DNA of 55,008 nt from an uncultured Thiodictyon sp. Lineage in GTDB: Bacteria > Pseudomonadota > Gammaproteobacteria > Chromatiales > Chromatiaceae. Positions within the stretch are counted from its first letter, which is position 1; the number at the start of each line of letters is the position of its first letter. The stretch covers positions 1 through 55,008 of the forward strand of contig NZ_CAJAXH010000035.1 in assembly GCF_903946935.1 (NCBI RefSeq). Reading direction: 5' to 3'. The notes under the pieces were generated by a model, which saw only the letters and a list, made by a program, of their open reading frames with translations, made no database searches and had not been told where the DNA came from. Positions 175 through 55,008 of this stretch are shown in pieces. The translations under genes were made by a program, and so were the position numbers.

Positions 175-3100
175 ATGTCCGCGACCGTCCTGATCGAAGT
201 CGCCGGCTTTCGCTTCCTGGACGGCACCGTGCCGGTCGGCCCCGCCCGCGCGCTCGACGCCGCGGCCCTGGGGGAGCTGCGCTCGCTCGCCGCCCGCTAC
301 TGGTCGCTGGAGCAGCGCCCGGACGCGGCGGCGGCCCTGGCCATCGGCCGGGATTTCTACCGCAGCGAACTGGACTACGAGAACGAGGAGGCGGCCATCC
401 TCACGGCCGTCGGCGACACCGGCCTGGACCTGCTGGTGGATGAGAGCGGCGAGGCGTCCGCGCTCGCCCGGCACCTGGCCGAGGTCGGGGGGCTCCCGGT
501 GCTGCACCTCTCCTGCCACGGACACCACGCCTGGCGCGACGGCCCGGGGTCCGACCCCAGGCCCGTCCTCCTGCTGGAGGACGGCGGCTACGGCCAGGCG
601 CCGACCGACGCCGCGGCCCTGGTGCGCGCGCTGCAATCGGCGCGGCCCCGGCTCCTGTTCCTCTCGGCGTGTCTGAGTGCCGCCGCGCCCGAGCGCCCGG
701 GCACGGCCCTGCCGCCCGGCCCCGGGGCCAAGGCGGGTCCGGGGCCGGCCGCGGCCGGGGGCCTGGCCTGCCCGCTCGCCGCCGCCCTGGTCCAGGCCGG
801 CCTGCCCGCCGTCATCGGCTGGGATGGCGCGGTCGCGGACATCGCGGCCACCCGCTTTGCCGCCCGGCTTTACCGCCGACTCGCCGACGGCGTCCCGTTG
901 GCGCTCGCCGTCGCCGAGGCCCGCCTGGCCCTGCTCGCGGACCCGGACCCCGGGGTCAGCCGCCACTGGCACCACGCGCGGCTCTGGCTCGGCGACCAGG
1001 GGTCGGGACTCGCCGCGCTGGTGGGCGGCGGGCGCAAGCGCTCGCTGCGGCCCGCCACCCACGACCAGAAGGAATTCCTCGGCAAGGAGGTCCCGGTGGC
1101 CGCCCATGCCCTCTTCGTCGGGCGCCGTCGCGAGATCCAGCAGGCCCTGCGGGTGCTGGAGGGTGGCGACCATGCCGGGGTTCTGATCACCGGCATGGGC
1201 CGGCTCGGCAAGTCCAGCCTGGCGGCGCGCATCGTCAACCGCCTGAGCGCCGGCCGGGCGCTCGCCGTCCTGCACGGGCGCTTCGGCGTCCGCGACCTGC
1301 TGGAGCGCCTGGCCGAGGCCCTGCACCCCCACGCGGCGGCCCGCGACTGCCTGCGCGCCGGCGAGGCGCTGGTGCGCGCCGCCGCAGAGACCGGTCCGGA
1401 GGCCGCCGTGCAGGCGCTCGGCGACCTGCTGACCGACCTGCTGAGCGGCCCCTGCCGGGAGCGCGGCCCCTGCCGGGAGCGCGGCCCCGCGGCCCCGGCC
1501 CTGCTCCTGGTCCTCGACGACTTCGAGCAGTTGCTGGAGGAGGCCCCCGGGGTGCGTCCGGTGCGCACCGCGCAGGCGGGGCTCATCGCCGCCATCCTGG
1601 GCGCCTTCGACCCGGCCACGACCGACAGCCGGCTCATCGTCACCAGCCGTTTCCCCTTTCGGCTGACCACGGGGCGCGCGGACCTCGCCGGGCGGCTCGC
1701 GCGCATCGAACTGCCGAGCTTCCAGCCGACCACCGAGCGCAAGCTCCTGCTGCGCCAGGAACAGTCGGCCACGCCCGCCCGGCTCGCCGCCGTCACGGCC
1801 CCGGCGGACGACCTGCTGTCCCGCGCCCTGGCCGCCGCCCGCGGCAACCCCGGGCTGCAAGACCTCCTGATCACCCGGCTGCTGCTCAACGCGGCCGTCC
1901 CGCTCCCAGCCGCCGCGGAGGCGCTCGCCCAGATGGAGGCGTATCTCGCGGGCGGTGACCTCCCCGGGGACGAGACCGTGCGCGCCCTGCTGGAGGGGAT
2001 CGCGGTCGATGCACTGATCGCCCTGGCCGGCGACGGCGGCCGGGTCCTGCTCCAGGCCATGGGCCTGTGCGACCTGCCGGTGCCGCGCACCCTGGCGGCT
2101 GAACTCGGCGGGGACCTGCAACGCCTCACCGACCTGGCCCTGGCCGAGCCCGGCGAGGACCCGGTCACCGGCGCCCGCGACGCGGTGCGCCTGAGCCCGC
2201 TGGCGCGCGCCCGGCTGCCGGCCCTGGGCGAGGCGGACCGGGCCGCGGTGGCGCGCCTGGCCGTCGGACCACTGTATGCCGCCTGGGGCGGTGCCGGGGG
2301 CGAGCGGCCCTGGGTGGCCGACTGGCAGCTCGGCGCGCTGGCACTCGCCGCCCGGGATGCCCTGATCGCCGCCGACTGCGGGGCCGCGACCATCTGCTGG
2401 CTGGAGGATGCCAGCTATGCGGCGGCGGCCGGGTTCGCCGGTGAACTGGTCGGGCTGATCGAGGGCGCCGGGGAGCCGCTGCCGCCCCTGCTGGTGGCCC
2501 AGGCGGCACGGGTGATCGGCGCCGCGGGGAACGGATCCGGCGCGGATGCGCTGCTGGCGCAAAGGGTAGCGGCGCTGGGGCGGGGCGGGGGGGAGATCGA
2601 GGCCGGCGCGCTCCTGCTGATCGACGCGCATGCCAGCCGGCTGTTTCAGCGCGGGGACCTCGACGCGGCACTGCGCATCCGGAGAGAGGTGGAACTTCCG
2701 GTGTACCAGCGCTTGGGCGACGTGCGCTCCAAGGCCGTCACCGAGGGCCAGATTGCCGATATACTTACTGTCAGAGGTGACATCGGCGAGGCCCTGCGCA
2801 TCCGCACCGAGGAGCAACTGCCGGTCTACGAGCGCTTGGGCGACCTGCGCGCGAAGGCTATCACCCAGGGCAAGATCGCCGACATCTTCAAGGCTCGCGG
2901 GGACCTCGACGCGGCGCTGCCTATCTATACCGATGAGGAACTGCCGGTCTACCAGCGCTTAGGCGACCTGCGCTTAGAGGCCGTATGTCAAGGCAAGATC
3001 GCCGATATCCTTCAGACCCGCGGGGACCTCGACGAGGCCCTGCGCATCCGTACCGCGGAGCAACTGCCGGTCTACGAGCGTCTGGGCGACGTGTGCGAGA

Positions 3101-3423
3101 AGGCCATATGCCAGGGCAGGATCGCCGAAATACTGGCGGCCCGCGGGGACCTCGACGCGGCACTGAGCATCCGCACCCTGGATGAACTGCCCGTCTACGA
3201 GCGCCTGGGCGACGTGCGGGAACTCCTCGCTTGCCGTACCAACATCGCGATCATATTGCTGAAGCGCTTGGCCCAGACCGGCCGCCGCGAGGATGCCCCG
3301 GAGGCCAACCGGCTGCTCTGTCTGGCACTCGCCGAGGCCCGCCGTCTGCGCCTCCCGATGGAGGCCGGAGAGATCGAGTCGATCCTGCAACAGGTCGGGA
3401 TGCAGTGCCCGGACCCGTCCTGA
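175..3423 (+). CDS. CHAT domain - STAND NTPase - TPR repeat protein (putative conflict/immune effector)
   Basis: The 1082-residue protein has three parts. Residues 1-275 are a CHAT (caspase-like) protease domain with the catalytic pair visible: His115 in SCHGHH and Cys166 in LFLSACLSA. Residues 330-560 form a STAND-type NTPase with a P-loop (GMGRLGKSS, Lys346) and a Walker B strand ending in Asp448-Asp449. Residues from about 822 to 1035 are five TPR-like repeats of 40 residues containing LPVYxRLGD and RGDLDEAL. The architecture resembles NLR-like sensors, in which the repeats detect a trigger, the NTPase oligomerises and the protease is activated; that role is inferred. I chose ATG 175 because AGGAG precedes it at a good distance; an in-frame GTG at 151 has no such site. 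An 18-bp in-frame tandem duplication (CRERGP twice) lies at 1447-1482. The CHAT segment before His115 seems short, so an internal deletion is possible. A small membrane-anchored gene follows 76 bp downstream. Confidence 0.85.
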   Translation: MSATVLIEVAGFRFLDGTVPVGPARALDAAALGELRSLAARYWSLEQRPDAAAALAIGRDFYRSELDYENEEAAILTAVGDTGLDLLVDESGEASALARHLAEVGGLPVLHLSCHGHHAWRDGPGSDPRPVLLLEDGGYGQAPTDAAALVRALQSARPRLLFLSACLSAAAPERPGTALPPGPGAKAGPGPAAAGGLACPLAAALVQAGLPAVIGWDGAVADIAATRFAARLYRRLADGVPLALAVAEARLALLADPDPGVSRHWHHARLWLGDQGSGLAALVGGGRKRSLRPATHDQKEFLGKEVPVAAHALFVGRRREIQQALRVLEGGDHAGVLITGMGRLGKSSLAARIVNRLSAGRALAVLHGRFGVRDLLERLAEALHPHAAARDCLRAGEALVRAAAETGPEAAVQALGDLLTDLLSGPCRERGPCRERGPAAPALLLVLDDFEQLLEEAPGVRPVRTAQAGLIAAILGAFDPATTDSRLIVTSRFPFRLTTGRADLAGRLARIELPSFQPTTERKLLLRQEQSATPARLAAVTAPADDLLSRALAAARGNPGLQDLLITRLLLNAAVPLPAAAEALAQMEAYLAGGDLPGDETVRALLEGIAVDALIALAGDGGRVLLQAMGLCDLPVPRTLAAELGGDLQRLTDLALAEPGEDPVTGARDAVRLSPLARARLPALGEADRAAVARLAVGPLYAAWGGAGGERPWVADWQLGALALAARDALIAADCGAATICWLEDASYAAAAGFAGELVGLIEGAGEPLPPLLVAQAARVIGAAGNGSGADALLAQRVAALGRGGGEIEAGALLLIDAHASRLFQRGDLDAALRIRREVELPVYQRLGDVRSKAVTEGQIADILTVRGDIGEALRIRTEEQLPVYERLGDLRAKAITQGKIADIFKARGDLDAALPIYTDEELPVYQRLGDLRLEAVCQGKIADILQTRGDLDEALRIRTAEQLPVYERLGDVCEKAICQGRIAEILAARGDLDAALSIRTLDELPVYERLGDVRELLACRTNIAIILLKRLAQTGRREDAPEANRLLCLALAEARRLRLPMEAGEIESILQQVGMQCPDPS
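2640..3240 (+). repeat. 120-bp tandem repeats encoding TPR units
   Basis: Five copies of a 120-bp unit run in frame through the 3' part of the CHAT gene. Each contains a near-identical stretch coding for RGDLDAAL and, further on, LPVYERLGDVR. Nucleotide identity between units is high, which suggests recent expansion or homogenisation by recombination rather than ancient divergence. In NLR-like proteins the repeat arm is the sensing part, so changes in copy number could alter specificity. Confidence 0.8.
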
Positions 3424-34497: not shown

Positions 34498-34770
34498 CGT
34501 TCCGTTCGCGGCACAGAGCCGCCGATCTGCGGCATACACCGTTCGATTCGCATGATAGAGCCGCCGATTGGCGGCATCGAGCCTTCGATCCGCGGCATCG
34601 ACCCTTCGATTGCCAGCATGGAACCGCCGATCTCCGGCACCGATCCTTCGATCCTCAGCATAGAACCGCCGATGTCCGGCATCGATCCTTCGATCTCCAA
34701 CATGGAACCGCCGATGTCCGGCATCGATCCTTCGATCCGCCGCATAGAACCGCCGGTGTCCGGCGTCAAT
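34498..34770. repeat. Minisatellite: thirteen 21-bp units without length variation
   Basis: Thirteen consecutive units of exactly 21 bp follow the pattern CC(G/T)(C/T)CGATnnnnnCATnGAn. Two unit types mostly alternate: CCGCCGATGTCCGGCATCGAT and CCTTCGATC...ATGGAA-type. Because 21 is a multiple of three, the array is open in several frames on both strands. On plus it reads as heptapeptides (PPMSGID, PSIRRIE), and on minus as (IEGSMPD, IGGSMLR). The unit sequence varies while the length is kept. On the plus strand the frame opens at 34492 with the first ATG at 34552 and runs to 34905, but it runs into a separate inverted repeat. I cannot show that it is translated. Confidence 0.85.
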
Positions 34771-34792
34771 CGTCTTCTGGCTCCCGCGCGGC

Positions 34793-44808: not shown

Positions 44809-44884
<76 letters not shown>

Positions 44885-44986
44885 AATTTTTGTAGGGTGT
44901 TGATTCTCTTAGGTAGTGCGCCCCCACGGCGAACAGGCGACCCTTGTACTAGGGTTCTGATCGTTTTGCACTGTCGAGGAATCGCA

Positions 44987-45868
44987 ATGGCCACCCTTGC
45001 CGCCGTGATTGACGCCTTTGTCGCGTCGCGCGAACACGACCGAGCGACGCTCGGTCGGCTCGCTTTCTGGGCTGATCGTCTGGGCAGTCGGGAACTCGCC
45101 GAGATCGCCCCCGAGGACGTCGATACCGTCCTGGTGCAACTGGCCGAGCGCGGCCGACTCAAGCCACGCCGCGGTCAAGACACCGCGTCCGCGGGCGTTC
45201 CGCTGGCCGGTTCCACCCTGAACCGCTACATATCCCAACTCCAAAGCATCTTCAAGTACGCCCGCCGTCTGCGGCTGCTGCCGCGCGCCCATGTGCCGCC
45301 GACCCGCGGCTTAGAGAAGTCCCCCGAACGCCCGGACCCCAACCGCTATCTTCGCCCGGAGGAGGTTGAGCGGCTGTTGAAGGTCGCCCGCCTCTTAGAT
45401 ACCCGCTGGGGCCGGCTGTCGGCCCTGATCCTGACGGCCTTTCATACTGGCTTGCGGATCGGGAACTTGCAGGCCCTCTGCTGGTGCGACATCGATCTTG
45501 AAAAGCGCACGGTCACGGTCGCCAAGACCAAGAACGGTCAACCCATCGTATCCGCCCTGTCCGAGCGCGCCGCCGCCGAACTGGCCAAGCTCCCAGGCCA
45601 GACCCCTGATGCCCTGGTGTTCGCTGGCCGCCGCGGCTGTCCCCACCACTTCCGCGCCCTCTGGACCAAGGTTTGCACCGAGGCCGGCTTGCCGGGTCGC
45701 AACTTTCACCAACTGCGCCACGGTTGCGGGTCGGCACTCGCCACCGCCGGAGTCGGGCAAGCGCAGATTATGGCAATCATGGGCCACCGGACCTTGACGG
45801 CTTCGGCCCGCTACATGCACCAGAACGCGAGCGACAAGCTTGCTGTGGTTGATAGGGTATTCAGATGA
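44987..45868 (+). CDS. int: Tyrosine-type site-specific integrase
   Basis: A 293-residue recombinase with the catalytic set Arg157 (TGLRIGN), Lys near 182 (TKNGQP), His241 and Arg244 (HQLRHG), His267 (GHRTL) and nucleophile Tyr276 (ARYMH). The N-terminal SAM-like core-binding domain covers about residues 5-100. ATG 44987 is chosen; the open frame further upstream runs through the tRNA. It lies 102 bp after tRNA-Gly, whose 3' end should be its attachment site. It probably controls its own element and overlaps the next gene by 4 bp (ATGA). Confidence 0.92.
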   Translation: MATLAAVIDAFVASREHDRATLGRLAFWADRLGSRELAEIAPEDVDTVLVQLAERGRLKPRRGQDTASAGVPLAGSTLNRYISQLQSIFKYARRLRLLPRAHVPPTRGLEKSPERPDPNRYLRPEEVERLLKVARLLDTRWGRLSALILTAFHTGLRIGNLQALCWCDIDLEKRTVTVAKTKNGQPIVSALSERAAAELAKLPGQTPDALVFAGRRGCPHHFRALWTKVCTEAGLPGRNFHQLRHGCGSALATAGVGQAQIMAIMGHRTLTASARYMHQNASDKLAVVDRVFR

Positions 45869-46476
45869 GCGACGTTAAGAATCAGGCCGACTCAAGGCCG
45901 AAGATTATTGTTGATCAAGTGCTAACGGCTTATAACCGGGCAGCGTATTTGTTTCAAGTGCAGCGCATGGATTCATTGCGTGACAGGATAGGGTTACTAC
46001 GGGAATGGTACCCAGAATTAGAATTTCCTAATAAAATGCTGGAGATAATTACTAAGTTATGGGGTCCCGATATAGATTACGATAATCCCGACACGGACCC
46101 CACTAAACGCGAGTATGTTCTTGGTCAATTAGAGCTTGTCCTGACACGCTTCGGGATGCGCGAACAATTTCTGTCACCGTGCGTACAGGGAGGGGCCATG
46201 GAATCAGAGGCTTCCAGCCGCGAACGAGATCAAGTTAAGCCGTTCTTCGATAGGGCTGATCGCGCCATGTTCGTTAAGCATGGCCGGCACCCGGGGGGCG
46301 GATGGCTGTTGGATGAAGCCGAGAAAATATTAGATGAAGATTTGAAGCGCGCAGGGAGTGAGGAAGAACGCGACGCGCTTCTTGAGACTCGCAAGCTTCT
46401 TACCGAAACCCGTGCCCGGGCCTATGTGAAATTGCGCAAGGCCAAGCCTGACCACGCAACAACGGGAGGGGCCTAG
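45865..46476 (+). CDS. Unrecognised protein following the integrase
   Basis: A 203-residue soluble protein, mainly helical and charged, without a motif that I recognise. Blocks include VDQVLTAYNRAAYLFQVQRM, LREWYPELEFPNKMLEII and a C-terminal Glu/Arg/Lys-rich helix (EEERDALLETRKLLTETRARAYVKL). The DNA is noticeably more AT-rich than the neighbouring genes, especially in the first 300 bp, suggesting a different origin. The start overlaps the integrase stop (ATGA), so it is translated with it. Confidence 0.7.
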   Translation: MSDVKNQADSRPKIIVDQVLTAYNRAAYLFQVQRMDSLRDRIGLLREWYPELEFPNKMLEIITKLWGPDIDYDNPDTDPTKREYVLGQLELVLTRFGMREQFLSPCVQGGAMESEASSRERDQVKPFFDRADRAMFVKHGRHPGGGWLLDEAEKILDEDLKRAGSEEERDALLETRKLLTETRARAYVKLRKAKPDHATTGGA

Positions 46477-46572
46477 GGTTCTCCCGTCGCCGAAGTGGCT
46501 CGCCACTGTGCGACCCGGTAATTTATCGCCTGACACTTCGCCGTGGGGGCGAACTACCGGAGGCACTACACT

Positions 46573-46860
46573 ATGGCGAGCAACGTGGCAACACCGGTTG
46601 CCGAGGATACAACTGATCGATTCGCGGGATACCAGCCTTTGCGCCCGTGGGTGGCAAAGCATGGTGGGCATATCTTCGCGAGCTTTTCCGCCGCCGAATG
46701 GTTCATTCGGGGGCACCGCGCCGAACTGGTCCGCTCTGGCCAGCTCATTGTTCGGCGAGGGGCGGCCGGGAGTCTGGTCGGCCCGCAGTTCGAGCGCGTG
46801 GTGTTGGACATCCTGCGGACTGAGAGCCTGCGGACCCTGGAACAGGAAGCCGCAGCATGA
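46573..46860 (+). CDS. Small protein of unknown function, possible DNA-binding regulator
   Basis: A 95-residue product. The middle part reads RPWVAKHGGHIFASFSAAEWFIRGHRAELVRSGQLIVRRGAAGSLVGPQFERVVLDIL. The spacing of helices, and the small size next to an integrase, would fit an excisionase- or regulator-like protein, but no diagnostic HTH is evident and I do not name it. ATG 46573 has GGAGG at 46558-46562. The stop overlaps the next start (ATGA). Confidence 0.65.
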   Translation: MASNVATPVAEDTTDRFAGYQPLRPWVAKHGGHIFASFSAAEWFIRGHRAELVRSGQLIVRRGAAGSLVGPQFERVVLDILRTESLRTLEQEAAA

Positions 46861-47030
46861 GCGCCCGTTCACAAGCGCGCCGCGCATCCAGGCAAGACAA
46901 GGCCAGCCGCCGCTGGCCCAAAAACGAGAAAGCCCAGACCCGGGGGACAACCGGCAATCTGGGCAGCGAGGTGACCGACAAGAAACTGAAATGCCGTCGC
47001 GATAGGCCCCAGCAAGGGCCTACCACGTAA
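46857..47030 (+). CDS. Very small basic protein (57 residues)
   Basis: It starts inside the stop of the preceding gene (ATGA) and ends at TAA 47030. About a third of its residues are Arg or Lys (SRQDKASRRWPKNEK, DKKLKCRRDR), which suggests nucleic-acid binding or a disordered tail. Two hairpins lie in the coding DNA (GCCCAGA/TCTGGGC and TAGGCCC/GGGCCTA at 47003-47022), so the stretch could also act as a structured RNA. The evidence for translation is the overlap only. Confidence 0.45.
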   Translation: MSARSQARRASRQDKASRRWPKNEKAQTRGTTGNLGSEVTDKKLKCRRDRPQQGPTT

Positions 47031-47144
47031 AGACCGCACTACCGGTCACCGGCCCCACCATTGTACCGCGTCCGCGCGGCCCATGGTGCGCGCCCCTGCC
47101 CGCCCGCGTGCGGTCAAACCCCAACCAGTCCCGGAGTTTGACCC

Positions 47145-47435
47145 ATGGCCACGACCAAGAAAACCGCGCCCCCCACGACCACCCCGGGCGAATCCTTACC
47201 CGACTTGCTGCCGCGGGACATTTTCTCCGCAAGCACCGATCTTGAAGAGCGCCTGAGGGAATTGCACGCGCTTGCCGTCTTGCTGTCAACGGATGCGGTA
47301 ACCGAGCTGGAAGGCGGTTCGTCAGTGGCGCTGCGCTACCGCGTCGGCGCCACGATGCTCTGTGACAGACTCGCGGGTGAGTGCGTCGAACTGTTCCAGC
47401 GCGCGCACGACGAGCTGAGGGGGAATGCAGCATGA
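47145..47435 (+). CDS. Small helical protein of unknown function
   Basis: A 96-residue product with a Thr/Pro-rich start (MATTKKTAPPTTTPG) and a helical remainder (TDLEERLRELHALAVLLST, ALRYRVGATMLCDRLAGECVELF). No family recognised. It is the first of four genes joined by 4-bp overlaps up to the primase gene, so it belongs to the replication operon. Confidence 0.65.
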   Translation: MATTKKTAPPTTTPGESLPDLLPRDIFSASTDLEERLRELHALAVLLSTDAVTELEGGSSVALRYRVGATMLCDRLAGECVELFQRAHDELRGNAA

Positions 47436-47683
47436 CTGGCCCCCGCCGCACGCTGACCGAAGCCCTGGACACAGTGGCGGCCCTACGCGCCGATGTCGCA
47501 TTGCTTGACGGTCTTGTCGCCGAAGCTGCCCGCCCCAGTGCGAGCTTAGACGGGGCCGCGCTGCTCGGATTGTCAGCAACACTAGGGCGCTGGGCGGATA
47601 GCCTCAGCGACCTTTCAGAATGCCTTGGCGCCCTGGCCAGTTCCGCCACCCCGGGAACCGCTCCACCGGAGGTGCAGCTATGA
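47432..47683 (+). CDS. Small helical protein of unknown function
   Basis: An 83-residue, mostly helical, acidic protein (LTEALDTVAALRADVALLDGL, LGRWADSLSDLSECLGAL). Start and stop both overlap neighbours by ATGA, linking it to the preceding small gene and to the ParB-like gene. No family recognised. Confidence 0.65.
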   Translation: MTGPRRTLTEALDTVAALRADVALLDGLVAEAARPSASLDGAALLGLSATLGRWADSLSDLSECLGALASSATPGTAPPEVQL

Positions 47684-48600
47684 CCGACCCCGCCCGTAGC
47701 CCCCGGCGCGGTATCAAGCCGGCCGCGAACCTTTCTGAAACCGCTTTCCCCCATGCCCCGGTGCGGCCCGACTCGCCGCCCGAGGTGCATCCGGTCTGCC
47801 TGTTGTTGCCGTCCATGGGTGACGCGGACCTCAAGAACCTGGTGCAGGACATCAAGACCAATGGCCAGCGACACCGGGTCTTGCTCTTTGAGGGCAAGAT
47901 CCTTGACGGCCGGCACCGGGCGCGAGCCTGCAACGAGCTGGGCATCGTCCCCCAGTATGAGGAGTGGTCGGGTTCCGATCCCGTGGCCTTCGTCCTCAGC
48001 GAGAACCTACATAGGCGACACCTAGACGCATCGCAGCGTGCCGCCGTAGTGGCTGCCGCAGAGTCCTACAGCACGCGCGAGGCAGAGGCCGCGGCCCGTG
48101 AGAAGGCCGGAAAGAAACACGAAACGCTAACCCTAGCGCCACGTGGCGCTAGGGTTAACGAAACGGGTAAGGCCGCCGCCGTCGCTGCCACCACTGCCGG
48201 TGTTTCGACGCGGACAATGGAGCGCGCCCGCAAGATCGCGAAGCAAGGCACCCCTGACGACGTGCGCGAAGTCATAGAGGGCAAGGTGACTGTTACCACC
48301 AAGGCCCGCGAGATCGACGCCCGCAAGCGTCCGCCCGTTTCCCAGGAAACGCCCGCCGCCACGCCAGTGACTGCCGGCCCGGCCCCGGCGCCTGAGATCC
48401 TCGAGCCTGATCCGGCCGACGATTCTGTCAATGTGCCCGTGGTCCTCAAGTTCACTGATCGCGAATGGGAACGGCTGCGCGCAATCGGTAAGAGGTCCTG
48501 GAACGGATACCGGGTGCAGGCCATTGTTCGGGCGTTCGTCTTGCTGCGACTGGAAGACGAAGAAGATAGGTTGGAAGAACGCGCGAGGCCCGCCCGATGA
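47680..48600 (+). CDS. ParB-like (ParB/sulfiredoxin-fold) DNA-binding protein
   Basis: A 306-residue protein. Residues about 34-115 form a ParB N-terminal domain (HPVCLLLPSMGDADLKNLVQDI, GKILDGRHRARACNELG, VLSENLHRRHLDASQRAAV). An HTH-like part follows near residues 165-205 (AAATTAGVSTRTMERARKIA). A Pro/Ala-rich linker leads to a C-terminal ribbon-helix-helix-like segment (VPVVLKFTDREWERLRAIGKRSWNGYRVQAIVRAFVL). No ParA is visible nearby, so it may act in replication control or regulation rather than partition. A 30-bp perfect palindrome lies in the coding sequence at 48128-48157. The gene overlaps its neighbours by ATGA on both sides. Confidence 0.82.
   Translation: MTDPARSPRRGIKPAANLSETAFPHAPVRPDSPPEVHPVCLLLPSMGDADLKNLVQDIKTNGQRHRVLLFEGKILDGRHRARACNELGIVPQYEEWSGSDPVAFVLSENLHRRHLDASQRAAVVAAAESYSTREAEAAAREKAGKKHETLTLAPRGARVNETGKAAAVAATTAGVSTRTMERARKIAKQGTPDDVREVIEGKVTVTTKAREIDARKRPPVSQETPAATPVTAGPAPAPEILEPDPADDSVNVPVVLKFTDREWERLRAIGKRSWNGYRVQAIVRAFVLLRLEDEEDRLEERARPAR
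48128..48157. repeat. 30-bp perfect palindrome with a CACGTG centre
   Basis: Two 15-bp arms, TAACCCTAGCGCCAC and its exact reverse complement, meet without a spacer. The centre GCCACGTGGC contains CACGTG, which is also the core of chromosomal parS sites. It lies inside the ParB-like gene, in codons 150-159, in a part likely to be a linker. It could be an operator or partition-type site for the encoded protein; this is inference. Confidence 0.8.
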
Positions 48601-49157
48601 GCGCCCCATCGTTCGCCAAGGTCAAGGCCGCCGCCCGTGGCCACTGGCTGGGCATCCTTCAAGCTCAAGGTGTTCCTGATGCCGTGCTGGACGGCCGGCA
48701 CCACCCTTGCGCCTGTGGCGGTCGCGACCGTTTGCGCTGGGACAACAAGAACGGTGACGGCTCATTCATTTGTGGGGGTGGAGGTGAGCCTACGGCCGGC
48801 GATGGGTTCGCCTTCATGGCTCATTACCTGGGGATGACCCTAGCCGAGGCCCTTGCCGCCGTCGCCCAATATCTTGGCGTGGTGGGTGACGATACCCCGG
48901 AGGCGCGACAGGAAGCCCGTAAGCGCGCGCAGGCCGCCGACCGTGTCGAGATCGAGGCCGAACTGTTGCACGAGCTGTATGTTCTCGTGAGTGTCATTCA
49001 GGCCCGGGTGACGAGTCGCACCATCGCCCGGGATGCCAATTTCCGCGCGTTGCGGCCCGACTGGCGGCCCTTCCCAGATGGCGACTGGGAGCGGGAGCGC
49101 CTGGCCGCCCGGCGCATCGGCAACGGCTTGGAGGCCCTGTATGGACGCGGCCGTTAG
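48597..49157 (+). CDS. Primase zinc-binding domain protein (P4 alpha N-terminal type)
   Basis: The 186-residue protein contains the Prim_Zn_Ribbon-like pattern HHPCACGGRDRLRWDNKNGDGSFICGGGG, then GDGFAFMAHYLGMTLAEAL, as in the N-terminus of the phage P4 alpha protein. The usual CxxC...CxxC set is incomplete: I see CxC and a single later Cys, with neighbouring His. In P4 this domain is joined to the primase and helicase in one chain. Here it stops after 186 residues and the helicase is a separate gene overlapping by 17 bp. No catalytic primase (TOPRIM) domain is evident. Confidence 0.8.
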   Translation: MSAPSFAKVKAAARGHWLGILQAQGVPDAVLDGRHHPCACGGRDRLRWDNKNGDGSFICGGGGEPTAGDGFAFMAHYLGMTLAEALAAVAQYLGVVGDDTPEARQEARKRAQAADRVEIEAELLHELYVLVSVIQARVTSRTIARDANFRALRPDWRPFPDGDWERERLAARRIGNGLEALYGRGR

Positions 49158-50499
49158 TTCGATCCTTGACCGGGTGCCGCGTGGCGGCAAGAAGCCGCCG
49201 AACCCGGCGCCTGCCGATGAGGCGCCGACTCATTACGACATCGCCGTGGATTGGATCGGGCGCCAAGGGGAGTTGGCGCCAGTGGCAGACGAGGGGCGGT
49301 TGTGGGTCTACAGCCAGAGGAGCGGACTGTTTGAGGCGATTGCGCCTGAAACCATACACACCGAAATCGGTAAGCGGTACCGGTCAAAGAACTGCAAGAA
49401 GTACTCGGATTACAAGGCCGTCGCCGCCCTGGTGCATGACATGACCGCCTCCCCTGGATTCTTCCGGGATGCGCCCACGGGATGCATGACGCCTGCCGGG
49501 TTCTTCGATGTGAGCGGGGCGCATGTGCGCCACCGGGAACCATCGCCGGACCTGCGACAGCGGTTTGCTATGGCGGTCACACCGACCGACACGGACGCCA
49601 GCCGCTTCGATCAGTTCCTTGATCAGACCTTCAGGCATGACGACTTGGACACGTCGCTTGCCCAACAGCGCCTGCTCCAAGAGATTGTCGGCGCCGCCCT
49701 GGTCGGGACGCTCTACCGCTACGAGAAAGCCGTTCTCCTACACGGCAAGGCACAGGCCGGCAAGTCCACCATTCTGCGGCTGATCGAGGCCCTGTTCCCG
49801 CCGCAGTTCGTCGGCTCGGTGTCGCCCTTCACCTGGTCAGACGACTACCACGCGGCGGCCCTGGCTGGCTTGCGCGTCAACCTGGTGGGTGAACTGCCAG
49901 CGGATAAGGAGTTGCCCGCCGCCGCCTTCAAGCTGATCACGGGGCGCGACGCGGTACAGGGGCGGCATCCCTTCGGCCGGGTGTTCAGCTTTCGCCCGAC
50001 CTGCGGACACATCTTCAACGGTAACGACTTCATCACGACGCGAGATCAGCACCCGGCATTCTGGCGCCGCTGGCTGTGTCTGGACTTCCTCAACACGGTG
50101 CCAGAGTCAGACCGCGATGAAGCCTTGGACGAAAAGATTATTCGCGAGGAACTTCCTGGGGTTGCCTGGTGGGCCTTGGAGGGTGCCCGGCGCCTGGTAG
50201 AGCAAGGGCACTTCAGCGATTCACCGGCACACCACGCGCTGATTGAGCGCTGGCGCCAGTCTTCCGACTCGGTTGCTGAGTTCGTTGCCGATGTTGACGC
50301 GGTGCGCGTTGCCGCCGCTGCAGTCGCCGTCCGGGGCGATGCTTACAAGGCGTTCTGTGTGTGGTGCAAGGACAACGGCCGACAATCGCTAGCCAAGAGG
50401 AAGTTCTTCAGCAGAATCGAGGGGTTGGGGTATGTTATTTCGCAATCCAGCAAGGGGTATTGGGTCATTCGAGGTATGGAGTTGATCCCCCCCAGATAA
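49141..50499 (+). CDS. SF3/D5-type replicative helicase (P4 family)
   Basis: A 452-residue protein with a D5/P4 helicase core: Walker A LHGKAQAGKSTILRLIEALFP, motif B GLRVNLVGELPADKE, motif C with HIFNGNDF, and the arginine finger FWRRWLCLDF. An N-terminal D5_N-like region (about residues 40-190) precedes it, and a winged-helix part (FCVWCKDNGRQSLAKRKFFSRIEGLGY) closes it, as in proteins that load at an origin. It probably unwinds the element's own origin. ATG 49141 overlaps the zinc-domain gene by 17 bp. Confidence 0.88.
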   Translation: MDAAVSSILDRVPRGGKKPPNPAPADEAPTHYDIAVDWIGRQGELAPVADEGRLWVYSQRSGLFEAIAPETIHTEIGKRYRSKNCKKYSDYKAVAALVHDMTASPGFFRDAPTGCMTPAGFFDVSGAHVRHREPSPDLRQRFAMAVTPTDTDASRFDQFLDQTFRHDDLDTSLAQQRLLQEIVGAALVGTLYRYEKAVLLHGKAQAGKSTILRLIEALFPPQFVGSVSPFTWSDDYHAAALAGLRVNLVGELPADKELPAAAFKLITGRDAVQGRHPFGRVFSFRPTCGHIFNGNDFITTRDQHPAFWRRWLCLDFLNTVPESDRDEALDEKIIREELPGVAWWALEGARRLVEQGHFSDSPAHHALIERWRQSSDSVAEFVADVDAVRVAAAAVAVRGDAYKAFCVWCKDNGRQSLAKRKFFSRIEGLGYVISQSSKGYWVIRGMELIPPR

Positions 50500-50515
50500 C
50501 TTGATGGGTATGTGT

Positions 50516-50628
50516 ACAGAAGAAACAGAAGAAACAGAACGAAAAACGCCCCTTAAAGCCATCTACGCGCGCGGGCGCACGCACACACGGGGCCGGCGTC
50601 GCCGCGATCCTTCTGTTTCTTCTGTTCT
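50516..50628. repeat. Iteron-like direct and inverted repeats after the helicase gene (possible origin)
   Basis: Three 9-bp direct repeats ACAGAAGAA, ACAGAAGAA, ACAGAACGA (50516-50542) are mirrored by TTCTGTTTCTTCTGTTCTG (50611-50628 region), which contains the same 9-mer on the other strand. Between them are 68 bp of GC-rich sequence. A partial copy (GAAGAAACA) follows at 50711. Short repeats next to a helicase gene suit a replication origin or an autoregulatory site. Translation of this stretch gives no recognisable protein. Confidence 0.55.
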
Positions 50629-50719
50629 GCGACCGGGTATCCCGGGCACAGGGCGAGCCGACAGGGCATCAACCACCCGCCGGACAGACAACGAACGCGG
50701 ACCAAAGCGAGAAGAAACA

Positions 50720-50830
50720 ATGGCCTTAATCCAGCGACACGAGGCGGTCCTGCCTGACAGGTGCCAGGTCTGCGGCGCATGGTGCCCAATCGACCCGCTT
50801 GGAACTCCACCGACTGAGGTGCGCCAGTGA
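50720..50830 (+). CDS. Very small protein (36 residues) with a CxxC motif
   Basis: ATG 50720 starts the frame MALIQRHEAVLPDRCQVCGAWCPIDP, which ends in an overlap with the next start (GTGA at 50827). The three closely spaced cysteines could bind a metal. A purine-rich GCGAGAAGAAAC precedes the start. The evidence is the coupling and the Cys pattern only. Confidence 0.4.
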   Translation: MALIQRHEAVLPDRCQVCGAWCPIDPLGTPPTEVRQ

Positions 50831-51471
50831 ACGCTATTGCACGCCTGACCGCCACGGAAGCGACGCGCGCGGCACTGACCGCCGATGCCGCCGCGATCCT
50901 ACGAACGGCAGTCGCGATGCAAGGCCCTCCTGCATTGGCTAATACGCGGGACCATGCAGCGCACCACGAGGCCGGACACGCGATCCAGCACGCGGCCGAA
51001 GGGCACCACGTCTTAGGCGTGGGGGTCTATCGGCGCGGCGCCGATTGGCTTGGGGGTGTCACTGTGGCGGGTCCGGGCTGGCGCATCGACAGCGACACCG
51101 ACCCACGGGCGGACCTGGTACGTGCGCGCGTCCTGCTCGCTGGCCCCCTGGCGGAGTGGCTGCACTGCGCCAGCCCTGCGCTTGGGGCAGGGGTTGACGA
51201 GATCGCCTTGGCGCGGGGAATCGTCGCGTCGGTTGCCTGTAAGCTGTCGATCGACCCCGAGGCATTGCACACCCGCACAGTGTGCGAAGTCATAGAAACC
51301 TTTGCTTGCCATCGTCATGCGTTCAATGGATTGGCCGCTGCCTTGATGGTTCATCGCAAGGTGAAGGGGTTTCAATTACTTCGGCTCTTGGAGAACGGCG
51401 GTATGGTCAACCCGCCGGGCGTTGCACGGTGCGGACAAGCGAGTTTGAAGCAACCGACTAGAATCATCTGA
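50827..51471 (+). CDS. Free-standing FtsH-like (peptidase M41-type) zinc protease domain
   Basis: A 214-residue protein with the zincin motif HEAGH at residues 47-51 (AHHEAGHAIQHAAEG). It is followed by RARVLLAGPLAEWLH and GAGVDEIALARGIVASVACKL, where Asp124 is placed like the third zinc ligand of FtsH. There is no AAA+ module or membrane helix, so it is the peptidase fold alone. Its targets are unknown; a role against host or helper-phage factors is possible but unproven. The start codon is GTG, overlapping the preceding small gene by 4 bp. Confidence 0.78.
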   Translation: MNAIARLTATEATRAALTADAAAILRTAVAMQGPPALANTRDHAAHHEAGHAIQHAAEGHHVLGVGVYRRGADWLGGVTVAGPGWRIDSDTDPRADLVRARVLLAGPLAEWLHCASPALGAGVDEIALARGIVASVACKLSIDPEALHTRTVCEVIETFACHRHAFNGLAAALMVHRKVKGFQLLRLLENGGMVNPPGVARCGQASLKQPTRII

Positions 51472-51517
51472 TCGTATCAACATTGAATGCGCAACAACAA
51501 CCCGAGAGGTTAATGAC

Positions 51518-51904
51518 GTGACTGATACCAGAGACAACACCACTACTCAGGAATGGGGCTACAGCGAACTTGACTTGCCGAACTTCGCCGCCCCCCTGGA
51601 CTTCACCGACCCCCTGCTGGCCATGGACTTCACCGACCCCCTGCTGGCCATGGACTTCACCGACCCCCTGCTGGCCATGGACGCCCTACCGGACTTCACC
51701 GCCCCCCTGGACTTCACCAACCGCCTACTAGACGTGGCTGAACTGACGAGAGGAAAGAGCCGACCCAAGAGACCAAGAAAACCAAAGAATGGCTACTCGC
51801 GAAAGAGAGACCCGCGTAAGAGTCCAGCGGTACGGGCCGCCAAGAGGCGCGCGCAAGTGTGCCGCCGGCTTGGTTCTGCTGAAGCTCGGACGCTGACGTC
51901 CTGA
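51518..51904 (+). CDS. Nonapeptide-repeat protein with a basic C-terminal tail
   Basis: A 128-residue protein starting at GTG 51518 with GAGAGG upstream. Residues about 19-73 are six nine-residue units: LPNFAAPL-type, three identical DFTDPLLAM, then ALPDFTAPL and DFTNRLLDV. The last 50 residues are very basic (RGKSRPKRPRKPKNGYSRKR), suitable for DNA or RNA binding. An acidic repeat part with a basic tail is unusual. I do not know a family. Confidence 0.65.
   Translation: MTDTRDNTTTQEWGYSELDLPNFAAPLDFTDPLLAMDFTDPLLAMDFTDPLLAMDALPDFTAPLDFTNRLLDVAELTRGKSRPKRPRKPKNGYSRKRDPRKSPAVRAAKRRAQVCRRLGSAEARTLTS
51599..51679 (+). repeat. Three identical 27-bp tandem repeats
   Basis: GACTTCACCGACCCCCTGCT plus GGCCATG occurs three times without a mismatch (51599-51625, 51626-51652, 51653-51679). 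Diverged copies flank them on both sides. Perfect identity suggests recent expansion by slippage. Confidence 0.95.
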
Positions 51905-52090
51905 GAAAGGATCGCGGTCTGTGTTCGCGGGTCCCTCTGGGGCTTTCCCTCTGTGCCCCGCGCCGCGAGCCGCGGTTCTTGGCAGAGTTTCGATACGGTC
52001 TAGGTACATTGTGATGTGTAAATAATAGGCTTTACCTATCATTAGGCGCTGTTAAACAGGTATGCCCTATCAATCGCACGAGGTTCCGAC

Positions 52091-52549
52091 ATGCTTGACA
52101 CATGGAATTCTGCAGAGGCTCTGGTTCGGATCGCCGCCGCCTTGGAGTCTGGCCGCCTACCGCCGGTAGGGGATCGCGCCTTCCTTGCTTGCGCGATTCG
52201 CCGCTGGCTGCAAGAAGACGAACCCATTGATCGCGCGCTTGGGCTGGGTGGAGGGCAGGGGCTACGCAAGGCGCGCACCACCTACCTGCGGGAGTGCCGA
52301 AACGCGGCCCTGCGGAAGGCTCACACCCTGGTTGACGGGCCTTCAGCGTGGCAGCGATCCGTGGCGCTTGCCGCAGAGGTCCGCCACTTCAACGCGAGCA
52401 TCTGGCCGTGCTGGGGGGGCCTTGATGAGCCGCCCACGGGGTTTAGCGACTTACGGGCGGCCCTGTTTGAGGCCGCCAATCTAGGCGCCCTGCCGGAGAC
52501 GCCGGAGGGGCTACACCGCATCTGTGGGCCGTTTGCGCACGACTTGTAA
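52091..52549 (+). CDS. Unrecognised protein of the integrative element
   Basis: A 152-residue soluble protein. The N-terminal half (SAEALVRIAAALESGRLPPVGDRAFLACAIRRWLQE) and the block RKARTTYLRECRNAALRKAHTL look helical and partly basic. The second half holds Trp and Pro (FNASIWPCWGGLDEPPTGF). No family recognised. The 186 bp before it contain an AT-rich stretch (about 52005-52045) that probably holds its promoter. Confidence 0.6.
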   Translation: MLDTWNSAEALVRIAAALESGRLPPVGDRAFLACAIRRWLQEDEPIDRALGLGGGQGLRKARTTYLRECRNAALRKAHTLVDGPSAWQRSVALAAEVRHFNASIWPCWGGLDEPPTGFSDLRAALFEAANLGALPETPEGLHRICGPFAHDL

Positions 52550-52758
52550 GCCCCCTTTTCGCTTCGGAATAAACGCGGCACGATGGCGATTCTCTGGGGT
52601 TTGAACCTCCCCCGAGAATGGAGCCGCTTCGATCCTGGTGAAACGGAGCAAGCCGCGAGGTGCTTAGACACCACCATCACGGAAGTCGGAAGTGAGACAC
52701 CCGGCGCCGTCGCCCCCCGGTCAACGGGGGCACCCTATTCGCCATAAGTGGAGGCCCT

Positions 52759-53016
52759 ATGATCTACACCGCCGTTCGCCACCCCGGCGCCGCCGCCCGT
52801 ATCCAAGGGGCTACGGCCCCGGCTTCGGTTGCGCGGCTAAACCCCATTGCTGAGAGAATACTTGCCAACTATCGGCTAATCATCGGCACGCATCCCCAAT
52901 CACCCGCAGCCACAAACCTAACGGCTGCGCGCATTCTTTCCAGTTATCGCGGTGTTATTGGCCCCGGGATTGCGCGCAACCTGCTTGCCCCGATCCGGGC
53001 ATTCGGGGGCGCTTAA
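52759..53016 (+). CDS. Small protein with a duplicated RIL-x2-YR motif
   Basis: An 85-residue protein in which one motif occurs twice: AERILANYRLIIG (about residues 31-43) and AARILSSYRGVIG (about 56-68). The rest is Ala/Pro-rich. ATG 52759 has GGAGG at 52749-52753. The next gene begins 2 bp after its stop. The motif resembles the repeats in the last gene of the window (AAIYAARRPL). Function unknown. Confidence 0.65.
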   Translation: MIYTAVRHPGAAARIQGATAPASVARLNPIAERILANYRLIIGTHPQSPAATNLTAARILSSYRGVIGPGIARNLLAPIRAFGGA

Positions 53017-53018
53017 TC

Positions 53019-53255
53019 ATGGTCACAGACTTTTCAGATGTGCTTGCTTCCCTGGCCGGCGCCCGTCAAAAGTATGATGAGGCTCGCAAGGAGTTGGAGA
53101 GCATGAAGCGCCGCCGTGAAGATATCGCCGCCCGTTCTGCCGTGTTGCCAGAACTTGACGCGCGAATTGGTCAAGCCGAGGTAGACCTTGCCGAAATGCT
53201 CAATGCAGCCAATCGGATGGGAATCACTATTGACAGAGGCGTCATAATTTCATAG
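53019..53255 (+). CDS. Small coiled-coil protein
   Basis: A 78-residue product dominated by a heptad-type coiled coil (LASLAGARQKYDEARKELESMKRRREDIA and LDARIGQAEVDLAEML). It follows the preceding small gene by 2 bp, so they share a transcript. No family recognised. Confidence 0.65.
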   Translation: MVTDFSDVLASLAGARQKYDEARKELESMKRRREDIAARSAVLPELDARIGQAEVDLAEMLNAANRMGITIDRGVIIS

Positions 53256-53334
53256 CTACCCAGCATCATCGAGCCCACATAAGCGGCATAGCCGCTCGAT
53301 GTTCGGCACCCTTCGCCATTGAGAGGAAAAAGAT

Positions 53335-54021
53335 ATGTTCACCAAAAAACCAGTTGAAAACGGCGATCTTCCGGCACTGCTGAATGTCAAAACCAGTACG
53401 GAGGCCCGCGCCAATATCGCCAAGTCCGAAACGTGGACGGCCGACACCGCGCGCGAAATCGAGCGCCTTGAAGCCGAGCGGACTTCGGCCCTGTTGAACG
53501 GTTCTGACGAGGATGTTGACGCCTTGGACGGCGCGCTACAAGCCGCCCGACGCCGCCGGGATCGCCTGGCCGCCACGATCCAGCGGCTTGGCGAGCAAGC
53601 CCTGGATCTGGAAGCCGCAGAACTGCGCACGGCTGCCCGCGAGGCCATTGCCAGGGCGAAGGCTGGGCATAAGAAGTACCCCGCCATGCTGGACAAGTAC
53701 CAAGCTGCCGCCAATCTTATCGGCGCTTTGGTTGCGGAAACGATTGAGCTTAATCAAGTCGCCTTTGATGCCCGGAAATTGGCGAAGGAAGCGGGGCTTG
53801 ATAATAGCGAGTGGGATCACCTGACGACCCCGGCCGGGATGATGTCGACTCCCGATCAAAAGGTTGTGAAGGATGTTCCCGGCGGAGTGGAAGAAGGCAC
53901 AATTAAAGGCCGACACGTTCTTGACTTGGAAAGGCCGCCATGGCTCCAAGGAATCTCTTTGCCTGCTCCATTTGGCGGTGCGATGATCGTCCAGCGGGGT
54001 AATTTCCCCAGCCATTACTGA
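53335..54021 (+). CDS. Coiled-coil protein of unknown function
   Basis: A 228-residue protein: a coiled coil from about residue 30 to 150 (ARANIAKSETWTADTAREIERL, QAARRRRDRLAATIQRLGEQAL) and a C-terminal part with Pro and Gly (TPAGMMSTPDQKVV, WLQGISLPAPFGGA). GAGAGG precedes ATG 53335. The shape would fit a scaffold or assembly protein of a phage-like element, but nothing in the sequence proves it. Confidence 0.65.
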   Translation: MFTKKPVENGDLPALLNVKTSTEARANIAKSETWTADTAREIERLEAERTSALLNGSDEDVDALDGALQAARRRRDRLAATIQRLGEQALDLEAAELRTAAREAIARAKAGHKKYPAMLDKYQAAANLIGALVAETIELNQVAFDARKLAKEAGLDNSEWDHLTTPAGMMSTPDQKVVKDVPGGVEEGTIKGRHVLDLERPPWLQGISLPAPFGGAMIVQRGNFPSHY

Positions 54022-54169
54022 TCGGGAATACACGTCGGCTTGCACCGAGTGCATCAAAGGGTCGCTTTTCAAAATCGACCCTTCCAAGTCTGCTGAATTG
54101 CTCCTGATTCAGTGCCGCGCAGCCCTCATACATCTTAAAGCCACACAACGCAATCACAGGACAGAACCC

Positions 54170-54592
54170 ATGTCATTGAGTAATGTCGACGTAGCCGCCA
54201 TCTATGCCGCTCGCCGTCCGCTAGCTGCCACCCAACGCAATACGCAACCTGCCCCGGGTGCCTTGATCGACGTAGCCGCCATCTATGCCGCCCGCCGTCC
54301 GCTGGCTGCCCCCCAACGCAATACCCAACCCGCCCCGAGTGCCTTGATCGACATAGCCGCCATCTATGCCGCTCGCCGTCCGCTGGCTGCCCCCCAACGC
54401 AATACCCAACCTGCCCCGCGTGCCTTGATCGACGTAGCCGCCATCTATGCCGCTCGCAGCCATCTGACTGGCACCCAACGCAATACGCAGACTGCCCGGG
54501 GTGGCTTGATCGACGCAGACGCCATTTATGCCGCTCGCCGTCTTGGGTTGGGCCAGTCCGAGCACGTTCCCTCTAACTGCGGCTGGCGATGA
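54170..54592 (+). CDS. Tandem-repeat protein with DVAAIYAARRPLA units
   Basis: A 140-residue protein made of five 27-residue units, each with [VI]AAIYAAR, then QRNTQPAP and a Leu-Ile-Asp end; the last units are more diverged (DADAIYAARRLG). There are no hydrophobic helices. ATG 54170 is chosen because it lies directly before the repeats; the frame is open to 54098. The regular, short exposed motif suggests binding several copies of one partner. Family unknown. Confidence 0.65.
   Translation: MSLSNVDVAAIYAARRPLAATQRNTQPAPGALIDVAAIYAARRPLAAPQRNTQPAPSALIDIAAIYAARRPLAAPQRNTQPAPRALIDVAAIYAARSHLTGTQRNTQTARGGLIDADAIYAARRLGLGQSEHVPSNCGWR
54191..54592 (+). repeat. 81-bp tandem repeats, five units
   Basis: The unit starts GTAGCCGCCATCTATGCC and recurs at 54191, 54272, 54353, 54434 and 54515 with constant 81-bp spacing. 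The first four are highly similar; the fifth is partly diverged. Confidence 0.9.
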
Positions 54593-54668
54593 TCGCCGGG
54601 GCTTGTGGTCGGCTGCATCAAGGCGCCCTTTACCAAGGTCCGGGGCACCCCCAAGGCCCTGGCACTGG

Positions 54669-55008
54669 CGCCGCGGTCGGATCGAGGTCCGGCCGGTACT
54701 GACGGGCGGTCGGCTTCCAGGATCGCCCCCGGCTGCACCTCCTGGCCCTTCACCCATGGCGATGGGCACCGGCTGCACCTTCGTCACTGGCGCCGATGAT
54801 CGAGGTCGGCAAGCTCAAGGCCGTGTGGCGTCCGGGTGGAGCTGCGCCGCGGTCGGATCGAGGTCCGGCCGGTACTGGCGGGCGGTCGCCTTCCAGGATC
54901 GCCCCCGGCTGCACCTCCTGGCCCTTCACCCAGGGCGATGGGCACCGGCTGCACCTGGCCACTGGCGCCGATGATCGAGGTCGGCAAGCTCAAGGCCGTG
55001 TGGCGTCC
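54669..55008. repeat. 176-bp tandem duplication running into the window end
   Basis: The sequence from CGCCGCGGTCGGATCGAGG (54669) to GGCCGTGTGGCGTCC (54832) recurs at 54845-55008 with about 176-bp offset, one 1-bp indel and a few substitutions. No gene with recognisable motifs is visible in 54593-55008 on either strand, although several frames are open. It may be the start of a longer array. Confidence 0.8.

Follow-up and report, generated by a model that had tools for sequence, protein, structure and literature searches.

Most of what is known of phage satellites comes from a small number in clinically relevant bacteria (PMC10803314; this and the other reports on satellites are cited from excerpts). 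In the Gram-negative phage-inducible chromosomal islands (PICIs), two sets of iterons flank an AT-rich region directly 3′ of the replication gene, an origin layout that the excerpted text states to be absent from every other known bacterial replicon, and AlpA was reported in all PICIs of E. coli (PMC6092414). PICIs are further characterised by attachment sites that prophages never use and by induction and packaging that depend on a phage. In the phage-inducible chromosomal minimalist islands (PICMIs), a gene named iolg, needed for excision, follows the integrase gene, and the gene in this position overlaps int in 21 of 35 subfamilies, most often by ATGA (PMC10803314). Here we describe an integrated element of an uncultured Thiodictyon sp., probably a purple sulfur bacterium, which begins at a tRNA-Gly gene and fills the right end (44885-55008) of the analysed window, the contig NZ_CAJAXH010000035.1 at its full length of 55,008 nucleotides. 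We read the element as a phage satellite that integrates at the 3′ end of tRNA-Gly, replicates itself and is packaged by a helper phage, and we put the probability of this reading at about 70%. A parasite of phages is the most likely identity because the element has its own copying machinery and no recognised virion genes, while its relatives carry differing handfuls of virion genes.

The target of integration, tRNA-Gly(gcc) at 44809..44884, is the only tRNA that ARAGORN finds in the window; it lies on the plus strand, as do all features below unless stated otherwise. The core of the left attachment site, attL (44838-44887), is 50 bp long. The first-pass annotation had proposed that a second copy of the tRNA-Gly 3′ end, attR, be sought to the right, and an exact 50-bp repeat was indeed found outside the window on another contig (C64:1297-1346), on which ARAGORN detected no tRNA. 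It is followed by a hairpin and a T-run, terminator-like as read by eye. The window is contig C35 in full, from a draft genome of 6.0 Mb (G000), and the adjacency of C35 and C64 rests on the att copy and on a shared GC-rich repeat, in which C35 ends and C64 starts (87-90% identity); no exact end overlap of at least 15 bases was found between them. Because the two contigs share this repeat without overlapping, the size of the element is only a lower bound, at least 11.5 kb, made up of 10.1 kb on C35, 1.35 kb on C64 and the gap between them.

The use of this site was surveyed in eight genomes of the genus, including the window's own, queried with the tRNA and with pgsA, a name read by eye. The same tRNA is occupied in three of them (the window's genome, G142 and G156) and free in four, and no tRNA copy was resolved in G035. 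In the four (G168, G127, G107 and G079) the tRNA runs directly into a terminator-like hairpin, and the site is therefore free; in G107 and G079 the tRNA concerned does not adjoin pgsA. The integrase at the occupied tRNA is 91% identical in G142 and 84% identical in G156, the latter over 171 residues only. After the attR copy, G142 and the window's genome have the same gene (90%), glutathione-transferase-like by our reading.

Comparison of synteny with related genomes, which had likewise been suggested at the outset, gave kin at the same tRNA in G142 and G156; in all, both ends were obtained for seven relatives. Five of these lie on single contigs (G118, 9.8 kb; G140a, 14.4 kb; G140b, 10.7 kb; G122, 12.3 kb; G320, 9.7 kb) and are flanked by exact repeats of tRNA sequence, 45-58 bp long (45 or more in G118); in G140b, G122 and G320 the integrase gene is at the end opposite the whole tRNA. 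The island of G156, in tRNA-Ser, is spread over two contigs, with 40 bp in common that lie within a repeat, and measures about 9.6 kb or more; that of G142, in tRNA-Gly, lies on two contigs with a gap between them and retains int, orf3, orf3b, the ParB-like gene and orf12. Each of the seven has one or more genes for virion or packaging proteins. Capsid genes of the HK97 type were found in G118 and G140a, a ClpP-capsid fusion with minor tail protein Z in G320, an S49 peptidase in G156, the GpA large terminase in G122, and a small terminase (phrog_57) in G122, G142, G140b and G320, where the G320 match falls mainly on the DNA-binding part and other helix-turn-helix families match too. A lone tail tape-measure gene of 878 aa lies near attR in G142 (L072:1357-3990). 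A complete head or tail set was seen in none of the islands among the chosen open reading frames (ORFs) that were scanned. Taken together, the ends, the size, the order of the genes, the layout of the origin and the partial virion cassettes of the relatives indicate a phage satellite.

Some further features of these islands were seen on inspection. In the tRNA-Ser island of G156, the S49 peptidase (L019:3-1040, L058:3233-3436) repeats a segment at its C terminus, and a capsid gene was not recognised in that island. Two islands of this kind occur at different tRNAs in both G140 (L036, L037) and G156 (L019, L064; the second partial).

The first-pass annotation, made without database searches, had listed a tyrosine integrase directly after tRNA-Gly, small genes in 4-bp overlaps, a ParB-like gene, zinc-primase and SF3 (superfamily 3) helicase genes, iteron-like repeats and a lone M41 protease domain, and each of these was recovered with the matches given below. 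The integrase (293 aa, 44987..45868) matches PF00589 at an E-value of 7e-25. Its gene overlaps orf2 (45865..46476) by ATGA, and orf2 is thus a positional analogue of iolg of PICMI, from which its function is inferred (PMC10803314). The same ATGA overlap is present in four of the five members in which our script recognised int (G000, G142, G156 and G118), while in G140a orf2 starts one base after int. The automated recognition worked in five of eight members; in the three that it missed, ORF coordinates give a 4-base overlap with the next gene in G320, one of up to 86 in G140b, and abutting genes in G122. Further 4-base overlaps lie at 46857/46860, 47680/47683 and 48597/48600, in addition to that of int and orf2 (45865/45868).

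Next come several small genes. The first, orf3 (95 aa, 46573..46860), found no match in Pfam, PHROG or NCBIfam; it is 89% identical in G142 and is a candidate excision or regulatory protein. The conserved small protein orf3b (57 aa, 46857..47030) is 71% identical in G142 and, in G140a and G140b, about 50% identical across 33 aa. Two more, orf4 (96 aa, 47145..47435) and orf5 (82 aa, 47435..47683), were assigned no function by the Pfam and PHROG scans. A 22-bp site stands beside attL (44912..44933), and a second copy with one mismatch lies inverted on the minus strand (46537..46558) just upstream of orf3. This is the only inverted pair with at most one mismatch in 44885-54600, and no such pair appeared in 30 triplet shuffles. 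G142 has the attL-side copy in the matching position without a mismatch, as does the tRNA-Gly element of G156 with 2 mismatches; with up to 5 mismatches allowed this copy was found neither in L005, L072, L019 and L058 nor in the free-site loci L065, L067, L068 and L069. The orf3-side copy likewise stands ahead of orf3 in G142, where it lacks one base. The site beside attL is likely to be bound by integrase or excisionase, and the excision complex may bind at the pair, orf3 being the candidate regulator.

The replication genes follow. The ParB-like protein (306 aa, 47680..48600) has its best PHROG match in a family of unknown function (3e-21), then in a ParB-like PHROG (5e-11), and matches TIGR00180 below the cut-off (0.0008); it is 58% identical in G156 and 64% in G142. 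The zinc-ribbon primase (186 aa, 48597..49157) matches PF08273 just above the cut-off and phrog_510 at 4e-27, and is 74% identical in G156. The SF3 helicase (452 aa, 49141..50499) belongs to the P4-primase C-terminal family and matches PF19263 (DUF5906) and, over the cut-off, the 'P4 family' model TIGR01613 (6e-36), with identities of 80% in G156 and 46% in G118. The G142 island was seen to have, in place of the SF3 helicase, one that combines a DnaB N-terminal domain with AAA_25 (L071:2159-3760), although its integrase, orf3 and ParB-like protein are close kin of the window's; the replication part thus varies too.

Directly 3′ of the helicase gene lies a putative origin (50516..50626), so named from its layout, in which direct repeats (50516-50539) and inverted repeats (50610-50626) with a 9-bp step stand around a 70-bp spacer. 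Iterons 3′ of the replicase were found in six of eight regions, where the observed count of the commonest 8-mer was matched in 0, 0, 0, 0, 2 and 6 of 200 shuffles, the value for the window being 2. Five of these six regions have 9 bp as their most frequent step, and the sixth, that of G118, has 9 and 10 equally often. The iteron sequence is common to the window's genome and G156, while G118, contig C357 of G142, G140a and G140b each have their own. By eye, a TAYGCGCG stretch is common to the spacers of the window (50565-50590), G156 and G118 (L019 and L021 spacers). An ORF that spans the iterons, orf9 (50501-50830), is doubted as a gene; a short C-terminal piece of it is the only part that resembles a frame of G142, and a short N-terminal piece the only part that resembles one of G156. 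A fifth 4-base overlap (50827/50830) is valid only if orf9 is a gene.

The right half opens with an FtsH-like M41 peptidase domain that stands without an ATPase domain (50827..51471). Its Pfam match is weak (0.0027, below the cut-off), and its AlphaFold model, with a pLDDT (predicted local distance difference test) of 82, finds FtsH as the top match in the PDB (7e-5) and also a 214-aa M41-domain phage protein in BFVD (1.6e-4). The HEAGH motif and a later, invariant Asp, which we take to be the third zinc ligand, are kept in all six aligned members. The predicted fold, with HExxH and the downstream Asp, has what defines an FtsH/M41 peptidase. The gene was found in five of 194 genomes of the family (E 0.001) and two of 369 of the class (alignment query, E 1e-10), the window's own counted in both. 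The alignment found two relatives in viral contigs (47% and 32%), and tblastn at E 0.01 gave no match in phage records or in 72,556 plasmid records. Among the two-ended relatives, four of seven have the gene (G140a, G140b, G122 and G320), and a 78% copy lies on the unplaced contig C357 of G142.

A shared gene, orf12 (52091..52549), is present with 35-45% identity in five of the seven relatives, and in G156, G140a and G320 it precedes S49 or capsid genes; identification by structure was tried, and its model (pLDDT 48) was unusable. Two coil-like proteins, labelled so by eye, follow. For the short orf14 (53019..53255), BLAST in a ten-protein set gave two collinear pieces of homology (6e-7 and 1e-4; 0 of 60 shuffles), one to each end of a 215-aa G156 protein whose middle is missing from orf14; orf14 also matches a 104-aa protein of G142. 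The 228-aa orf15 (53335..54021) was found only in its own genome among the 194 of the family, and gave no phage match; its kinship with the coil-like proteins of the relatives is doubtful, as it scores E 0.066 against a 267-aa protein of G140b, which 0 of 60 shuffles reach, and against the G156 protein a score that 17 of 60 reach. Three proteins made of short tandem peptides had been claimed for this half, and two real arrays were found. In rep1 (51518..51904) repeats of 9 aa are followed by a basic tail (27 bp x 3.2 at 51597-51682), and rep3 (54170..54592) has repeats of 27 aa (81 bp x 4.4 at 54186-54542). The ORF rep2 (85 aa, 52759..53016) showed no tandem array when one was looked for. In the four units of rep3, variable columns number 7, 6 and 4 at codon positions 3, 1 and 2; as the changes are not concentrated at third positions, coding selection in rep3 is unproven.

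At first this gene set could not be matched to a named family, and the comparison with described satellites modifies this. With the Gram-negative PICIs the element shares an integrase gene at one end, a rightward order of genes from int with all listed genes on the plus strand, a replication gene directly followed by two sets of iterons, and the lack of a recognised virion set. Unlike them, it has a replicase split into two genes, a ParB-like gene before it, an M41 domain, a host that is probably a purple sulfur bacterium, no detected AlpA, and a GC-rich spacer between the iterons (PMC6092414). With PICMI it shares the PF00589 integrase, the ATGA-overlapping gene, a primase/helicase of one of the two families concerned (PF19263, that is DUF5906; the other is DUF3987) and the lack of a recognised capsid-remodelling gene; its site is however tRNA-Gly and not fis, its host lies outside Vibrionaceae, and it is larger than the Vibrionaceae average of 6.7 kb (PMC10803314). 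AlpA, by which PICMIs are also defined (PF05930 or PF12728), gave no match up to E 0.1 in 15 ORFs of the window; orf3 had no match at all in Pfam or PHROG, nor did the similarly placed proteins of G156 and G118 in Pfam. The element is best read as a phage satellite of the PICI/PICMI plan that departs from some of the definitions tested, with AlpA undetected, a site other than fis and a spacer that is not AT-rich.

Other satellite types are less close. The element had been called a P4-type replicon, and this holds for the helicase family, which it shares with P4-like satellites; unlike in these, primase and helicase are separate genes (PMC8628076). Membership in the P4-like group was rejected on the absence of the psu, sid and delta families from Pfam scans of the 15 ORFs. 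Pfam presumably contains models for all three. Capsid-forming PICIs hold all head and packaging components (PMC10690885); some relatives have single head genes, but none of the islands was seen to hold such a set, and the assembled part of the window's element lacks a recognised one. A satellite capsid homologue, Ccm, is reported to redirect capsids (PMC8569155), and the lone capsid genes of the relatives may work in this way. Satellites were also reported to use their own tape measure in chimeric tails, with tmp genes in putative satellites outside Vibrionaceae (PMC12987554); this report on PLE of Vibrio cholerae fits the lone tape-measure gene of G142, a kind of gene that PLEs carry too; the window's copy has no recognised tape measure. 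For the island itself, no description was recognised in the open-licence literature searched, supplements aside.

The alternatives must be weighed against this. An ordinary tailed prophage, which the first-pass annotation had named as the alternative, was rejected for the assembled part, where profile scans recognised no virion set and the genome has no match to PF05065, PF05876 or PF03237. An inert element in decay, left by a small prophage or by a once fuller satellite whose virion genes are lost, would account for the shortness of orf14 relative to its G156 homologue, of which it matches only the two ends, for the repeat-rich right end and for the absence of recognised virion genes among the ORFs of the window. 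We consider it unlikely, as the integration and replication ORFs are open, several with 4-base overlaps, int and orf3 are 91% and 89% identical in G142, and six relatives with measurable ends are about equally small. The choice between a satellite and a plasmid-like element had been left undecided, and the related islands support the former best. An integrative replicon kept by its own replication and by ParB, with no need of a phage, would fit the ParB-like gene and the replicase with iterons, and P4-family replicases do occur on plasmids (about 25% identity among the matches listed). This is nevertheless improbable, and weaker because general profile scans of the window's ORFs turned up no ParA or relaxase family, att repeats are present and kin have free sites; the sister islands moreover carry virion genes, and the M41 domain found no counterpart in the plasmid records. 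Searches of phages for the same replication genes gave helicase relatives of about 24% among the matches listed and ParB relatives in six records, over at most one third of the protein; in viral contigs no relative of helicase or ParB was found, and one distant relative (38%) of the primase. Among genome contigs, a search gave no relatives beyond two that were known already. Very improbable, finally, is a chromosomal island of defence or other cargo, built around the M41 and tandem-peptide genes, for which mobility would be incidental. A metalloprotease beside repeat proteins is unusual cargo, and the PICMI gene up2 gives phage defence (PMC10803314), but a PADLOC scan of ten proteins returned only weak matches of orf15 to JetC, and genes for integration and replication make up much of the element.

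Several observations also weigh against the satellite reading itself. Profile scans detected no terminase, capsid-redirecting or AlpA gene in the window's copy. The genome has no match to PF05065, PF05876 or PF03237 (found as controls in 4, 3 and 6 of 14 genomes; other phage families were not searched) and therefore no resident helper of those families, so that the helper would have to arrive by infection, as it does for PICMI. The gap between C35 and C64 remains, and the virion scan of the seven relatives took only chosen ORFs, so more genes may exist there. No iteron signal was obtained in the regions of G122 (matched in 44 of 200 shuffles) and L041 (145 of 200). The window's iteron spacer has 70% GC, compared with 62% for the element, and thus lacks the AT-richness of PICIs; the figures are 38% in G118 and 47% in G140a. 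A relative of the M41 gene lies in G132 (L041), where the ORFs were taken to indicate a Mu-like region, and viral contig L042 has a distant one; the gene is therefore not exclusive to such islands.

If the element is a satellite, its cycle may be pictured as follows. The tyrosine integrase would insert the island at the 3′ end of tRNA-Gly, and excision would be carried out by Int with orf2 and orf3 as helper proteins. The free form would be copied by the zinc-primase and SF3 helicase from the iteron origin, as the layout suggests, and then packaged into particles of an infecting helper phage, which is proposed because no virion genes of its own were recognised. The right half, with the M41 domain, orf12, orf14, orf15 and the tandem-peptide proteins, might act as a hijack or interference cassette, a role suggested by the sister islands, which carry capsid, protease, terminase or tape-measure genes there; in the window's copy M41, orf12 and orf14 are the candidates for the hijack step. 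A wider proposal, possible but tentative, is that these satellites form a lineage, present in purple sulfur bacteria as well as other gammaproteobacteria, whose members have a related backbone and exchange single virion genes (capsid, head protease, terminase, tape measure) after the origin, around orf12, each hijacking a different step of helper assembly, while the ATP-free FtsH-type protease cuts helper or island proteins. Islands of a PICI-like plan in purple sulfur bacteria and their kin would, if this is true, widen the range of satellites; the partial virion sets would serve as natural experiments on the assembly steps open to takeover by a satellite, and among satellite tools the M41 domain would be unusual.

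The GC-rich end repeats (54668..55008, unstranded) have a unit of about 175 bp with no gene recognised, gave no known RNA up to E 0.1 in their window part, and are present in two of the eight genus genomes. They continue at the start of C64 and were also seen at contig ends of G142; the loci outside the window are L005:197-394, L033:180-314 and L049:8770-9201. Two arrays were noted in the chromosomal part of the window, one at 34508-34771 with a 21-bp step, open on both strands, and one at 2650-3218 with a 123-bp step, which perhaps encodes protein repeats.

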